Assembly: GCA_903930805.1 (NCBI GenBank)
Contig: CAIYZZ010000124.1
Coordinates: forward strand, 1 to 13,325
Source: an uncultured Rhodocyclaceae bacterium
GTDB taxonomy: Bacteria; Pseudomonadota; Gammaproteobacteria; Burkholderiales; Rhodocyclaceae
Reading direction: 5' to 3'
Length of the DNA: 13,325 bases
In this document: piece by piece, positions 2,789 to 12,966 of the stretch
Position numbering within the stretch: position 1 is the first letter of the stretch
Layout: every line of letters begins with the position of its first letter
Position numbers and translations under genes: made by a program
Notes under the pieces: generated by a model
What the model saw: the letters and a program-made list of their open reading frames with translations, nothing else
Told to the model about the DNA's origin: nothing
The model's database searches: none

Positions 2789-3778
2789 ATGGCTACCCGT
2801 TCTGAAAACAACCTTGTTGGGGCTGCGGGAGAATATTTTGTCTGTGCGGAGCTTTGCAGGAGAGGCTTTCTGGCACTGATGACACCGAAGAATAACCCGC
2901 TATTTGATGTGGTGGCCGCGTCTTCCGATGGCGCTCACTCTGTATCCATCCAGGTGAAGACAAGGTCTGTCCACAACATTCAAGGGTGGAAGCTCGGCAC
3001 GGATATTACGAAGAAGGATGTACCTACGGATCTATTTGTAGTGCTTGTAAATCTTGAGGATGGTGTGCTGCCTACCTTTTACGTCTATGAATACTCTGTT
3101 CTTGCAGGGAGAGTTTCAGACGTTTACGAAGCCTACATTAACAAACCCAAGCGAGATGGCACCCCAAAGAAGGAGGTGGGTTTCCGCTGGTTCGATGAAG
3201 GGTCATTTACTGATGATGATCGTTCCCGAAAAAATAACTGGCAATCGATAATCGATGCTCTGAGCTGCCCGACGGATAAGAACAGGCTCAAAAGAGTAGA
3301 TTTTCAGAGCCCTGAAAAGTTAACGATCAACGAACTGCTCTCCGCTCACGGATCGGTTCTCGATGAATTGAAGCACCGGGGCGTTATTCGCTCTAAGAAT
3401 AATCCGACGGGCGATTACGCAGAGTGGTTATTTTCCACAAAGCTGGGGCTTACCTTGGAGCCCCAGGCGAATGGAGGTTTCGATGCAACGGACTCCCAGA
3501 GAGTACGCTACCAGATCAAGAGCCGCCGGGTAACGCCCGACAACCCATCGACCCAACTCGGTGTCATCAGGAATCTGGACAAAAATGATTTTGACTTTCT
3601 CCTCGCGGTTGTTTTCGACGCCGACTGGCAAGTTCTCCGTGCGGCGAAAATATCGCATAAAGTCGTTGGGACTCTAGCGACGTTTCGTTCCCACCAAAAC
3701 GGCCACATCATGCACCTGCGCCCAACAGTTTTTGATGTTCCGGAAGTTGAGGACATTACCAAGGTGTTACGCGATTGA
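2789..3778 (+). CDS. Unknown protein with two PD-(D/E)xK-like nuclease domains in tandem
   Basis: A 329-residue protein I cannot name. The N-terminal part has AAGEYFVCAELCRRGF (E15), then NNPLFDVV (D40) and SIQVKTRS (Q55-x-K57). This is the E...D...QxK pattern of restriction-endonuclease-like folds, close in style to Holliday-junction-resolvase-like and DUF4365-type proteins. The same pattern returns near residues 205-250: NPTGDYAEWLF (D209, E212), GGFDATDS (D232), YQIKSRR (Q242-x-K244). The protein therefore looks like an internal duplication of a nuclease fold, or one active and one structural copy. The start is taken at ATG 2789 because GAGG stands 7 bases upstream; an in-frame TTG at 2777 lies before that site. 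Base composition is as AT-rich as in the preceding nuclease gene. A perfect hairpin follows the stop at 3787-3807. There are no transposase or helicase motifs. Function is inferred only from fold-level motifs. Confidence 0.65.
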   Translation: MATRSENNLVGAAGEYFVCAELCRRGFLALMTPKNNPLFDVVAASSDGAHSVSIQVKTRSVHNIQGWKLGTDITKKDVPTDLFVVLVNLEDGVLPTFYVYEYSVLAGRVSDVYEAYINKPKRDGTPKKEVGFRWFDEGSFTDDDRSRKNNWQSIIDALSCPTDKNRLKRVDFQSPEKLTINELLSAHGSVLDELKHRGVIRSKNNPTGDYAEWLFSTKLGLTLEPQANGGFDATDSQRVRYQIKSRRVTPDNPSTQLGVIRNLDKNDFDFLLAVVFDADWQVLRAAKISHKVVGTLATFRSHQNGHIMHLRPTVFDVPEVEDITKVLRD

Positions 3779-8453: not shown

Positions 8454-10190
8454 GTGATTCCCGAGTCTTTCATCCAGGAACTGCTTGCTCGCATCGATAT
8501 CGTCGATGTTGTCGAGCGTTACGTCCAACTCAAGAAGGCAGGCGCCAATTATCAGGCCTGCTGCCCCTTCCATTCCGAGAAGAGCCCATCCTTTACGGTC
8601 AGTCCGTCCAAACAGTTCTATCACTGCTTCGGTTGTGGTGCCCACGGCAGCGCCATCAGCTTTGTCATGCAGTATGCCGGGCTTGGTTTCATCGAGGCGG
8701 TGGAGGATCTCGCCAACAGCCTCGGCATGCCGGTACCGCGCGAGGTAGGTGCCCACTCACAGCAGAAAGCGCGACAGGCACCACTTACAGAGCGCATGGC
8801 GCAAGCTGCGCGTTTTTACAAAGACCAGCTCAAGGCCAGCCCCGTGGCCATCGAGTATCTCAAGGGGCGCGGCCTGACCGGTGAAATTGCCGCGCGTTAT
8901 GGTCTCGGTTACGCACCGGACGAGTGGCAGGGTTTGCAGCGCGTCTTCGACGATTACACCTCACCAGCCTTGGCTGAGTGTGGCCTGGTGATCGATAACG
9001 AACAGGGGCGGCGGTATGATCGTTTTCGTGACCGCATCATGTTTCCCATCCAGGACCAGCGTGGCAGCGTCATCGGTTTTGGCGGGCGCGTACTCGGTGC
9101 GGGCGAACCAAAATACCTCAACTCGCCTGAAACCCCATTGTTTCACAAGGGCGAGGAGCTTTATGGTCTGCCGCAGGCGCGCAAGGAAATCCAGCAGCAG
9201 AACATGGTGCTGGTTGTCGAGGGCTATATGGATGTGGTGGGCTTGGCGCAAAGTGGTGTCGAAAACGTGGTTGCTACCCTCGGCACGGCGGCCACCGGGA
9301 TCAACATCCAGCGCCTGATCCGCCTGGCCGACCGCGTCGTGTTCTGCTTCGACCGCGATGCCGCCGGAGAGCGTGCTGCCAAGCGAGCCATGGAGGTCAG
9401 CCTCGAATACCTCGTCGATGGCAAAAGCATCGAGTTTCTCTACATGGATGGCAACCAGGACCCGGACGAGTTTGTCCGCGAACACGGCAAGGAAGCTTTC
9501 CTCCGGCAAACGCTGAACGCGGCCAGATTGAGCGACTTCCTAGTGCGCAAGTTGATGCAGGAAAGTAATACCCATACGGCAGAAGGTCGCGCCAGACTGG
9601 TCAGCGAAGCGAAACCGCTATTGCAGAAGATTTCTGCGCCGGTGCTGCGTGTGCAGATCACCAAGGAAGTTGCCAAGTACGCGCAACTTTCCCAGGCCGA
9701 GTTGGAAGCGCAATGCGGTCTGAAGTCACTCGCCTGGAACCGCAATGCCCCGCCTCCACAAGGCCGGTTGCGCCCGGCGCCGAACGCGCTCGAACGCACC
9801 TTGCTCATGACCGTCCTGCGCCGCCCGGAGCGCGCCGCTCGCCTGCCTCTCGACCTGATCGCCCAGGATAACGCCGAGGGTGCGGCACTGGTTGCTGTAG
9901 CCGACGCCATCGAGCACGCCGCCTTGCTGTCAGGAAATCTCGGGCTGCTGATCGAGTATTTTCGCGGTAGCGCGCATGAGGAAATTATCGCCACAATATC
10001 CGGGCGGATTGAGGAGGATGCGGGTGATGAAGGCGAACAGGAGAGGGTTTTCATAGATACCGTTGAGCGCCTGCATGAGCAGGCCCTGCATCGTCAGATC
10101 GAAGAAATGAATGCTAAGGCTCGCGCCGGCGCCCTTTCGACCGAAGAACGGCAAACCCTCGCCAGGCTGCTTTCGCGCAAAAGAGCTTGA
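8454..10190 (+). CDS. dnaG: DNA primase
   Basis: A 578-residue primase that makes RNA primers for replication at the fork with DnaB helicase. The zinc-binding domain is at the N-terminus with C37, H40, C58 and C61 (CCPFH and HCFGCG). The RNA-polymerase domain contains [21 protein letters not shown] and the TOPRIM acidic residues VVEGYMD (E256) and [10 protein letters not shown] (D300, D302). The C-terminal part (about 430-578) is the helicase-binding region, less conserved as usual. Length is normal. The start codon is GTG 8454, fixed by the conserved [24 protein letters not shown]; no ribosome binding site is seen before it. Third gene of the macromolecular synthesis operon, 46 bases before rpoD. 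Confidence 0.97.
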
Positions 10191-10199
10191 TAGCACGTG

Positions 10200-10205
10200 T
10201 ATAAT
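10200..10205 (+). promoter_or_regulatory. Perfect -10 box before rpoD
   Basis: TATAAT stands 31 bases before the rpoD start, followed by CGCGCGC, a GC-rich discriminator. No good -35 element is found at the right distance (the bases there are GCAAAA). It is probably an internal promoter that gives rpoD its own transcription, as in E. coli, where minor promoters lie within dnaG. Confidence 0.5.
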
Positions 10206-10236
10206 CGCGCGCTTTGCCGCGATTCGAGTCGAGCCC

Positions 10237-12546
10237 ATGTCAAAGCCAACCACCAAGCCGACCAAGGCCTCCCCCAAGCCTGCCGCCAAACCGGCAATGG
10301 CCAAGTCTGCCAGGTCTGAGAAGCCTGCGGCCAAGGTCGCTCCTGTAGCCAGAGCCAGGCCAGCTGCCAGGGCGGTAGCAAAGCCCGCCAAGGCCGCAGT
10401 CAAACCTGTCGCCAAGCTAGCGCAGGGCAAGCCAGTAGCGGCGGGCAAGCCGGGAAAAACGAGCCACAAATCCGAACCGTCACAGGTTAAGGCAACAGTC
10501 CCTGCTGCTCATGTTGCCAAGGTAGCTAAAGTTGCGACCCCGATTACCCCCCCGCCCGTCCCTGCTCCTGCGGCACCCGTGGTAATTGAACCGGTAGTGG
10601 CCCCCGTCGGCAAACTTAGCGCCAAAGCCAAGAAGCTCCGGGACAAACAAATGCTGGCTGCGCTCGAGCAGGCGCAACCGACCACCATTGATCTCGAGGC
10701 CCGCCGCACGCGCCTGAAGAGCCTGATCACGCTTGGCAAGGAGCGTGGTTTCCTCACTTATTCGGAAATCAACGATCACCTGCCGGATGATCTGGTCGAT
10801 GCTGAGCAGATCGAGGCAATCATCAGCACCTTCAACGACATGGGTATCCAGGTCTATGACCAGGCACCCGCGCCGGAAGAGATGCTGCTGGCCGAACAGA
10901 GCACCGCGCCGATCGATGCCGCCGAAGCTGAAGAGCAAGCCGAGCAGGCACTGTCGACGGTCGACTCGGAATTCGGCCGCACGACCGATCCGGTGCGCAT
11001 GTACATGCGCGAGATGGGTACGGTCGAATTGCTGACGCGCGAAGGTGAGATCGAAATCGCCAAACGTATCGAGGAAGGTCTCAAGCACATGGTGCTGGCA
11101 ATTTCTGCCTGCCCCACGACGATCACCGAAATCCTCGAGATGGCCAACAAGGTTTCCCTGGACGAGATGCGCATCGATGAGTTGGTCGATGGCCTGATCG
11201 ATCCAGATGCCCCTGACGAGGATATCGAGGCCAAGGCCAACAGCGTAGACGACGAAGGCGAAGGTGTGGGGCTGGATGACGAAGAAGACGACGAGGAAGC
11301 CGCCGAGGCCCGCGTGTCCGCTTCGTTGTTGCAACTCAAGCAGGATGCTCTAGAACGCTTCACCGTCATCCACCAGTTATATGGCAAATTGATGCCGGCA
11401 CTGATGAAGCGCGGCTCCCAGGACAAGAGCTACCTGCGCATCCAGAAGCAGATTTCCAACGAGCTGATGAATATCCGCTTCACCGCGCGCTCCATCGAGC
11501 GTCTGTGCGATTCGGTGCGCGGTATGGTCGAGGCGGCACGGGCTCACGAACGCAAGGTCTTGCATCTTTGCGTCGATAAGGCGCACATGCCGCGCCAGCA
11601 TTTCATCAAGGTCTTCCCGGGTAACGAAACCAACATGGAGTGGCTGAAACACGAGGTGCAATCCGGTAAACCCTATGTTGGCGTGCTAATGCGTCAGGCG
11701 CCAGCCATTCTCGAAGAGCAGCAATCCCTGATCGATCTGCAGGGACGCATGGGCATCCCGCTCAGGGAACTCAAGGACATCAATAAGCAGATGTCCACCG
11801 GTGAGGCCAAGGCGCGCCGGGCCAAACGCGAGATGACTGAGGCCAACCTGCGACTCGTCATTTCCATTGCCAAGAAATACACCAACCGTGGCTTGCAGTT
11901 TCTCGACCTGATCCAGGAAGGCAACATCGGCCTGATGAAGGCGGTGGATAAGTTCGAATATCGTCGTGGCTACAAGTTCTCTACCTATGCGACGTGGTGG
12001 ATCCGTCAGGCCATTACCCGCTCGATCGCCGATCAGGCGCGCACCATCCGCATCCCGGTGCACATGATTGAAACGATCAACAAGATGAACCGCATTAGTC
12101 GCCAGATCCTCCAAGAAACCGGCAGCGAACCCGATCCGGCCACGCTGGCGATCAAGATGGAAATGCCCGAGGACAAGATTCGCAAGATTCTCAAAATCAG
12201 CAAAGAGCCAATCTCGATGGAAACGCCAATCGGCGACGACGACGATTCGCATCTAGGCGACTTCATTGAAGATCAATCAACACTCGCCCCCGCCGACGCC
12301 GCACTGTTTGCCAGTTTGCGCGAGATCACCAAGGAAGTACTCGACAGCCTGACGCCGCGCGAAGCCAAGGTGTTGCGCATGCGTTTCGGCATCGAGATGA
12401 ACACCGATCACACGCTGGAAGAAGTTGGCAAGCAGTTCGACGTAACGCGCGAACGGATCCGCCAGATCGAGGCCAAGGCATTGCGCAAGCTGCGCCACCC
12501 CTCGCGTTCGGAGAAGATGCGCAGTTTCTTGGACGGTAGCGAATAA
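10237..12546 (+). CDS. rpoD: RNA polymerase primary sigma factor RpoD (sigma70)
   Basis: A 769-residue primary sigma factor. Residues 1 to about 128 are a low-complexity extension rich in Ala, Lys and Pro ([18 protein letters not shown]...). Region 1.1 follows at about 128-208 ([23 protein letters not shown]). Region 1.2 contains [21 protein letters not shown]. The non-conserved region holds an acidic run ([14 protein letters not shown], about 345-358). Region 2 begins about 528 with [19 protein letters not shown], then [19 protein letters not shown] and [17 protein letters not shown] (-10 recognition). Region 4 ends the protein, with the -35-binding helix-turn-helix [20 protein letters not shown]. 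The start at ATG 10237 is chosen because an in-frame ATG at 10111 would overlap dnaG by 80 bases and put non-family sequence in front. Last protein gene of the operon. Confidence 0.97.
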
Positions 12547-12587: not shown

Positions 12588-12871
12588 GGGCCTGTAGCTC
12601 AGTTGGTTAGAGCAGAGGACTCATAGCGTAAGTTGTGCCATACGTTTGGAAACTGCGTATGGGATGGTGTCAAATTCGGTGAAAGCTAAGTGCAGCAATG
12701 CATACGCCAACGCCGAGCCAAGCTTCGATGCGAAAGTGTCGTTGAAGGTGTAGAGACTAGACGGCACCCACCTAAAGCGAAAGCCACGGTGAAGGCATAG
12801 TCCAGGGAGTAGTGAAAACTACACAAACCGGAATCCTTTGGTCCACGGTTCAAGTCCGTGCGGGCCCACCA
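12588..12871 (+). tRNA. tRNA-Ile(CAU), interrupted by a group I intron
   Basis: The two exons are 12588-12624 (37 nt) and 12832-12871 (40 nt). Joined, they give a 77-nt cloverleaf with encoded CCA: acceptor GGGCCTG/CGGGCCC, D arm GCTC/GAGC, anticodon stem GAGGA/TCCTT, T stem CACGG/CCGTG with loop TTCAAGT. The anticodon is CAT in the loop CTCATAA. The GACTCATAATC-like anticodon arm is that of isoleucine tRNA 2, which reads AUA after TilS changes C34 to lysidine. It is not initiator tRNA (position 1 pairs normally with 72 and there is no GGG/CCC anticodon stem) and not elongator tRNA-Met. The intron sits between positions 36 and 37, so the tRNA is unusable until splicing. An intrinsic terminator follows. 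Confidence 0.95.
12625..12831 (+). ncRNA. Group I self-splicing intron (IC3-type, Azoarcus-like)
   Basis: A 207-nt intron with the expected parts. P1 pairs exon CAT plus intron AGC (12622-12627) with GTTGTG (12632-12637) around a GTAA loop, placing the required U-G wobble at the splice site. P2 is 12638-12644 with 12656-12662. P3 is GGTGTC (12666-12671) with GGCACC (12763-12768). P5 is TGCA/TGCA with loop GCAA. P6a is GATGC/GTGTC with a GAAA loop and an outer CTTC/GAAG stem. P7 is GACTA (12755-12759) with TAGTC (12798-12802), the guanosine-binding helix. P8 is CACC/GGTG. P9 is GTAGT/ACTAC with a GAAA loop. The terminal G (omega-G) is 12831. From memory it closely resembles the intron of Azoarcus BH72 tRNA-Ile(CAU), with paired changes in P2, P5, P6a and P9. 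No homing endonuclease is encoded. It should fold and splice without protein. Confidence 0.95.
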
Positions 12872-12875
12872 ATTT

Positions 12876-12907
12876 AAAAACCCAACCCTTATCGGTTGGG
12901 TTTTTTT
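12876..12907 (+). terminator. Intrinsic terminator after tRNA-Ile
   Basis: CCCAACC (12881-12887) pairs with GGTTGGG (12894-12900) around CTTATC; the stem extends with A run 12876-12880 against T run 12901-12905. Seven T residues follow the stem. It starts 4 bases after the encoded CCA. Because the A run is also upstream, it could work on both strands. Confidence 0.9.
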
Positions 12908-12909
12908 CT

Positions 12910-12966
12910 GCCTGTTGCGCCAGTACTGGCGGGGCTTTGGCAAAGATGCGTTGCCAGCCAACAGGC
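12910..12966. other. Predicted three-way-junction structure
   Basis: Outer stem GCCTGTT (12910-12916) pairs with AACAGGC (12960-12966). Inside are hairpin CGCCA-GTAC-TGGCG (12918-12931, part of a perfect 14-base palindrome) and a second hairpin in which GGCT and GGCAA (12933-12943) pair with TTGCC and AGCC (12951-12959) across a TT bulge. Found by eye only. It could be a REP-like element, a small-RNA domain or the remnant of a mobile element. Confidence 0.4.

Follow-up and report, generated by a model that had tools for sequence, protein, structure and literature searches.

A group I intron of the Azoarcus type in the tRNA-Ile(CAU) gene of an uncultured Rhodocyclaceae bacterium, and integrative elements as a plausible vehicle of its family

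The tRNA-Ile(CAU) gene of an uncultured Rhodocyclaceae bacterium was found to be split in the anticodon loop by 207 nt with the structure of a group I intron. The gene lies in a stretch of 13,325 nt, which was analysed as a whole and is called the window here. Taken jointly, the data are very probably best explained by an ORF-less intron of the IC3/Azoarcus type that would be removed by guanosine-dependent splicing and whose family has spread in part by integrative elements. The intron is a new natural ribozyme of the Azoarcus type, a kind that is already known.

Results

The interrupted gene

With introns allowed, ARAGORN found a single tRNA in the window, tRNA(cat) [12588,12871], with a 207-nt intron at gene base 38; without introns it found zero tRNAs across the window. 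The joined exons form a 77-nt cloverleaf, which the program labelled 'tRNA-Met(cat)', the label Met being given to every CAU tRNA in this analysis. In two congeners (L270 and L274) the same 77 nt occur without interruption 3' of rpoD, and the intron boundaries are therefore exact. These results agree with a preliminary description of the window, in which its only tRNA was described as broken by 207 nt between anticodon bases 36 and 37, the exons joining to a tRNA of 77 nt. The features of the locus are as follows (positions of the window).

10111..12546, + strand: rpoD, directly 5' of the tRNA gene, gap of 41 nt (ORF list)
12588-12871, + strand: tRNA-Ile(CAU) gene, split by the intron (ARAGORN with introns allowed)
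12588..12624, + strand: 5' exon of tRNA-Ile(CAU), 37 nt, ending with CAU34-36 (ARAGORN with introns; same in intronless L270 and L274)
12625..12831, + strand: group I intron, 207 nt, terminal G (ARAGORN with introns; RF00028; covariation)
12622..12637, + strand: P1, exon CAU and intron AGC opposite the GUU GUG guide, loop GUAA (covariation; minimum-energy fold)
12638..12662, + strand: P2 with GAAA loop (89.4% of cells paired; both sides changed in 6 of 7 stem pairs)
12666..12671, + strand: P3, 5' strand, partner 12763-12768 (100% of cells paired)
12675..12717, + strand: P4-P5, with P4 at 12675-12680/12712-12717 and P5 between (covariation; P4 93.4% of cells paired)
12718..12748, + strand: P6 and its extension, GAAA loop (P6 base pairs 100% of cells paired)
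12753..12759, + strand: P7, 5' strand with bulged A, partner 12798-12803, region of the G-binding site (100% of cells paired)
12763..12768, + strand: P3, 3' strand (covariation)
12769..12791, + strand: P8 (main stem 100% of cells paired)
12798..12803, + strand: P7, 3' strand (covariation)
12805..12829, + strand: P9.0 (12805-12806/12828-12829) and P9 (12809-12813/12818-12822) with GAAA loop (covariation)
12831..12831, + strand: omega-G, last base of the intron (sequence; invariant in 43 of 43)
12832..12871, + strand: 3' exon of tRNA-Ile(CAU), 40 nt, from A37, CCA encoded (ARAGORN with introns; L270, L274)
12876..12907, + strand: terminator-like hairpin and T run, 3' of the tRNA (sequence)
12686-12961, - strand: ORF of 91 aa antisense to intron and tRNA, most likely spurious (ORF list)

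Both the CAU anticodon and an Ile2-like body are present in the joined exons. By its identity features and its locus, the joined tRNA is presumably tRNA-Ile2, the lysidine-modified type, and this is how the product of the interrupted gene was read from sequence and locus. A hairpin and T run comparable to that of the window follow the tRNA gene of the intronless congener G493 (L275). At 66 of 148 intron-bearing loci, duplicates counted, rpoD was present on the same strand at most 1.5 kb upstream.

Structure and expected splicing

A match to the Rfam model RF00028 was obtained at 12620-12824. Of the group I model search that had been proposed in the preliminary description, the full-length match stood (all 253 model positions, E 1.1e-10), while the score of 46.6 bits missed the gathering score of 50 bits, a curated threshold and no biological feature. 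The default Rfam scan of the window was empty because the match lies below this score. Across 300 genomes of the order RF00028 gave a match in 32, and the gathering score was passed by 9. As such low scores are common in the order, the expected group I helices were written out on the window sequence, and all 61 expected pairs (P1-P9.0) form in the window copy. Weak matches to RF02553, RF02837 and RF02278 were far under their cut-offs, overlapped the tRNA, the upstream hairpin or the terminator, and were rejected.

Covariation was measured in 43 sequences, the window and 42 others chosen for dissimilarity from 148 intron loci, with introns longer than 216 nt or containing N left out. The expected partners were paired in 95.2% of 2554 cells, and slid partners in at most 35.8%. 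Both sides had changed in 37 of the 61 pairs, and none of 500 shuffles reached any of the five covariation measures; chance pairing is thus excluded by the covariation. The minimum-energy fold of the whole gene was 2.6 sd below that of shuffles, 2 of 200 shuffles being as low. The group I core P3-P8 and the P7 pseudoknot are present and conserved in this set. The U.G pair of P1 at the 5' splice site occurred in 43 of 43 sequences, P9.0 was paired in 100% of cells, and the last pair of P7 showed an A-U/U-A exchange in 11 of 43. The complete group I ribozyme fold that had been claimed earlier is borne out by the full-length model match together with the covarying structure of 61 pairs.

P5 is a short hairpin, and the P5abc extension is absent. 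The + strand of the intron has no ORF of its own of at least 80 aa that could encode a homing endonuclease; the sole listed ORF of this length is antisense and extends beyond the intron. IC3 introns are described as devoid of P5(a-d) in a passage of PMC11835236, and the window intron combines absence of P5abc and small size (207 nt) with a tRNA host. Judged by this anatomy (small, short P5, tRNA host), the intron is probably of the IC3/Azoarcus type.

P1 would be formed in the pre-tRNA by pairing of the exon CAU with the GUG of the intron guide. Guanosine bound in P7 would attack 3' of the U in CAU, and the freed exon would then attack 3' of the terminal G, yielding the 77-nt tRNA-Ile(CAU) and a linear intron of 207 nt. 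This two-step chemistry is established for group I introns. The intact, covarying core and an experimentally known relative point to self-splicing of the window intron. That relative, the intron of Azoarcus sp. BH72, comes from another organism and is 205 nt long, against 207 nt in the window; its insertion site and the GAAA loops of L2 and L9 are presumably those of the window intron. Like the window intron, it belongs to group I, is small and interrupts the pre-tRNA-Ile of a proteobacterium (Reinhold-Hurek and Shub 1992; Tanner and Cech 1996, as cited in passages of PMC4033280 and PMC4390854). Parts of PMC3984707 name crystal structures of pre-tRNA-Ile and give the chemistry as guanosine attack at the exon end, then exon attack after the terminal G.

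The group I introns of cyanobacterial and plastid tRNA-Leu(UAA) differ from the window intron in host tRNA and in exon pairing. Their subgroup is presumably the same. A 20-nt core motif of the intron family of the window was also present in many tRNA-Leu introns of viral contigs. At least 120 stretches of viral contigs carried this motif (L298, L299, L301-L418); 91 of the 120 listed lay inside an intron-bearing tRNA according to ARAGORN, and 47 were labelled tRNA-Leu(UAA), some isotype labels being unreliable. In the order, group I-like introns were also seen in other tRNAs, namely Leu(UAA) and, by ARAGORN, Asp, Asn and Thr (L003, L008, L010-L012, L016-L019, L021).

Occurrence in other genomes

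Only 1 of 19 genomes of the genus contained the intron. In the family, 52 of 395 genomes gave some match to it, and 12 of 395, that of the window included, were at least 80% identical to it over query bases 15-217 or a longer span. The same insertion site was found in at least 118 pattern-matching stretches of named genomes. The listed matches were mostly titled Betaproteobacteria (Polynucleobacter, Limnohabitans, Methylotenera, Rhodocyclaceae and others), and a few named Gammaproteobacteria; some titles of metagenome-assembled genomes in the list (Akkermansia, Opitutae) look wrong.

The trees of intron and rpoD were compared for 45 loci with both sequences. In AU tests the intron data rejected the rpoD tree (p 4e-55), and the rpoD data rejected the intron tree (p 4e-4). 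In the intron tree the branch of L100 had a length of 8.5, which points to misalignment; when L100 and L114 were left out, the intron data still rejected the rpoD tree (p 4e-73). The clearest pair was Gulbenkiania mobilis (L043) and a member of the family of the window, G641 (L180): their introns were 98.6% and their rpoD genes 77.8% identical, and between -497 and +382 relative to the tRNA their DNA aligned at 88.8%.

For the window intron itself the conflict with rpoD is mild. Its best match was the Gulbenkiania intron (90.3%; rpoD 72.7%), followed by that of L180 (89.9%; rpoD 78.3%). Vertical descent from an old betaproteobacterial ancestor, with loss from the other sampled members of the genus, is therefore to be weighed and appears rather unlikely. 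Many groups share the insertion site and a conserved core, the lead of Gulbenkiania over L180 amounts to 0.4 points only, and L182, close to the window by rpoD (81.4%), is also close by its intron (88.8%). Losses would, however, be needed in 18 other sampled congeners, as the single occurrence in the genus implies, and within the family the good matches are limited to the 12 of 395 genomes mentioned. The conflict of the two trees also stands against descent, as does L059, the closest relative by rpoD (82.6%), whose intron is just 82.1% identical to that of the window.

Introns of about 245-300 nt were also observed at another position of the same tRNA-Ile2, after base 33 and before base 34 (L020, L024, L025, L026, L028, L029, L204 and L342). 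In Polynucleobacter sp. MWH-HuK1 (L075, L129, L131, L450-L455), four tRNA-Ile2 genes were complete and carried the intron, and two additional 3' halves were present. At L119 (CAIYZI010000323.1; L036 is the other copy) the exons of the intron-bearing tRNA seem mismatched, as in chimeric halves, the 5' exons being alike in both copies.

Orphan halves and integrative elements in relatives

Spread of the intron family by integrative elements, the preferred reading, was suggested by remnants of split tRNA genes. An orphan 5' half of another tRNA-Ile2, ending in the anticodon loop, was located upstream of 48 of 118 intron-bearing loci (those among 128 unique loci with at least 400 nt upstream); such counts ignore kinship, and many loci belong to Polynucleobacter or Limnohabitans. 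The distance from the orphan half to the gene had a median of 162 nt (range 112-445). A second method found orphan halves at 47 of 118, the half of L058 being omitted from this count and treated as absent in the integrase association test given below. No orphan half was obtained on the reversed sequence (0 of 118) or in the 900 nt downstream (0 of 102). Intronless loci had an orphan half in 2 of 46 cases, compared with 48 of 118 (Fisher p 1e-6, relatedness ignored); these 46 came from the family or genus of the window only and were mostly selected by similarity to its tRNA. Of the twelve loci listed in or near the family, four had the half. Two of the eight loci with the 33/34 site also had upstream orphan 5' halves, L020 having two.

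In the intronless congeners L266 (G478) and L276 (G490), one or two orphan tRNA-Ile2 5' halves were seen after rpoD, and behind them lay a complete tRNA of a different type, which indicates turnover of tRNA-Ile2. In L271 (G494), also intronless, such a half or halves follow other genes, and the contig end cuts the region. In the two orphan cases of the genus with a full tRNA, G478 and G490, the replacements are intronless.

The pattern of the 3' half occurred at 57 places in 20 genomes, 40 of which were read. The genomes had been reached via intron loci, a selection from which the relative frequency of replacements with and without the intron cannot be derived. Complete intron-bearing genes were present at 22 places, including L471, where the intron occupies a different site, and the 5' half was missing at 18. 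At 11 of these 18 an element-like arm ending in TCTCAT was joined to an intronless 3' half, and at two (L470, L476) the arm was joined to the whole intron and 3' half. Three (L455, L464, L482) had kept an intron piece alone, and two (L466, L485) had other junctions. In five genomes (G686, G689, G692, G693 and G702) one contig carried the intron-bearing gene with its orphan 5' half as well as an intronless 3' half that had been displaced, and the two element ends were 9.7 to 59.6 kb apart.

An integrase-like ORF was present 0.1-4.3 kb downstream of the intron-bearing gene in six island pieces (L490, L492, L495, L496, L498, L499), which represent four genomes plus the two islands of G698 counted apart. 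All six ORFs and a second short recombinase matched integrase families of PHROGs; the Pfam cut-off was passed by only 3 of these 7. The island of G689 showed no integrase-like ORF by eye. Among 116 flanks, 13 had an integrase relative within 4 kb downstream, five of them as fragments of 41-120 aa only. Integrases were not significantly associated with orphan halves: among loci whose flank sufficed, the counts were 5 of 27 against 2 of 34 (p 0.22).

The displaced 3' halves and the integrase genes are the marks of integrative elements that introduce a replacement tRNA with an intron. Crossover would take place at CTCATA(A) in the tRNA-Ile2 anticodon loop; the gene in residence would be split, and the element would provide an intact copy. 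Such elements are a plausible vehicle for the intron, which may in part have spread horizontally between hosts in this way. The CAT|AA of the orphan halves was rejected as proof of an intronless target, the bases after CAT stemming from the incoming element. Intron-bearing tRNAs are split as well, since the displaced L470 and L476 hold the whole intron. It was also considered that the intron, by dividing the crossover sequence CTCATAA, makes renewed integration into the replacement tRNA less frequent; this idea is weakened, because two displaced 3' halves came from intron-bearing and 11 from intronless tRNAs.

Two phage observations concern the same tRNA. The phage contig IMGVR_UViG_3300023174_008937 (L301 3129-3776; pattern match 2861-3088) carries an intron-bearing tRNA-Ile(CAU) adjoined by a TilS-domain gene (126.6 bits, cut-off 93.6), and it encodes UvsX-like and single-strand-binding proteins; tRNA and TilS-domain gene are possibly a phage kit for reading AUA. 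Pseudomonas phage phi3 (NC_030940.1; L419 2501-2577) contains a 77-nt tRNA-Ile2-like sequence, 94.9% identical to the joined exons, which overlaps the end of the integrase gene and is a likely attachment site.

Arrival of the intron at the window locus

The window locus (L001) had no orphan 5' half upstream, rpoD and the tRNA being 41 nt apart, and no element marks were found at the locus. The DNA downstream matched that of the intronless congener G493 (74% over 217 nt). The intron occupies the resident gene, which is free of an element scar; possible routes are an old element that was later lost, recombination between tRNA copies, or inheritance with losses elsewhere. Recombination of 5' half with 5' half and of 3' half with 3' half would erase the element and leave the arrangement seen in the window. 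It is quite possible, although short of probable, that all of the following hold together for the Betaproteobacteria: the tRNA-Ile2 intron is largely cargo of integrative elements, it moved between families, and the window copy is a later product from which scar and element were lost.

Arrival by reverse splicing or homing, with no element involved, is unlikely. It would account for the locus without an element scar and for the precise insertion into a tRNA identical to intronless ones, but the 207 nt contain no homing endonuclease ORF, and copies in relatives are borne by elements.

State of the gene in its host

In ten ORFs of the window, selected by eye, AUA accounted for 7 of 193 Ile codons. 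The draft genome yielded 25 further tRNAs, a number that looks short of a full set, and no second tRNA-Ile(CAU) was one of them; the other CAU tRNA (L210) resembles, by eye, the elongator Met tRNA. The search of the draft for TilS-like proteins gave a single, weak match, to a protein that is TtcA (485.6 bits), and PF09179, the TilS domain, had no match in the draft, this model detecting only 3 of 14 controls. TilS was over the cut-off in 16 of 19 genomes of the genus (that of the window being in the 19 and outside the 16), and its lack in the draft may therefore be an assembly gap. It is plausible that the tRNA, and with it splicing, is essential.

That the insertion is decayed or inactive and the gene a pseudogene, with another tRNA-Ile(CAU) at work, is highly improbable. 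A second copy could be missing from a draft with 25 other tRNAs, and the RF00028 score is under the cut-off; against this, every expected pair forms in the window copy, the invariant core positions are kept in 43 of 43 sequences including that of the window, and the exons equal those of intact genes. An artefact of assembly or binning that brought in a contig of another organism can be dismissed: the single occurrence in the genus and a draft of 558 contigs (contamination 5.69%) might suggest it, but contamination as the source is ruled out by DnaG of the same contig, which matched best in congener G478 (81% identity) and then in G417 (70%) in 199 family genomes searched, and by the end of rpoD, 82-89% identical to 16 congeners, and the downstream match to G493 agrees.

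Discussion

The proposed spread of an ORF-less, presumably guanosine-spliced intron by integrative elements resembles known systems in part. Phages whose replacement tRNA has no att motif (Rhizobium phage vTRX32-1) are treated in PMC8631192, and islands with a replacement tRNA in PMC4383910 (Islander). In these phages and islands, as in the relatives of the window, the target tRNA is split and a full replacement is supplied. The vTRX32-1 type brings a replacement without att motif, whereas in the relatives of the window the replacement is interrupted by a group I intron, and a 5' half broken off in the anticodon loop is left as an orphan.

For archaea, gain of tRNA introns through the att site of an element has been proposed (Sugahara et al. 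2012; passages of PMC3293823 and PMC8371274), and the idea of Randau and Soll that tRNA introns give protection is taken up in a passage of PMC4390854. In that model, as in the relatives of the window, tRNA genes are the place where an intron and an integration target coincide, but archaeal tRNA introns are spliced by enzymes, while the bacterial tRNA-Ile2 introns are ribozymes. Passages of PMC8371274, PMC4390854 and PMC3293823 link tRNA introns to archaeal integration, and tRNA introns are also treated in a part of PMC4033280. According to a passage of PMC3984707, the phage group I introns known by 2014 were all in protein genes. Among the open-licence papers listed in the literature searches, no title connected group I introns of bacterial tRNA genes with integrative elements.

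Default ARAGORN without introns and Rfam at the gathering score both miss the window gene entirely, and a genome can therefore seem to have no tRNA-Ile(CAU); negative default scans were not accepted as a sign of absence. For the intron family, elements that carry an intron-bearing replacement tRNA would provide a testable vehicle for an old puzzle, the scatter of small, endonuclease-free tRNA introns over distant bacteria.
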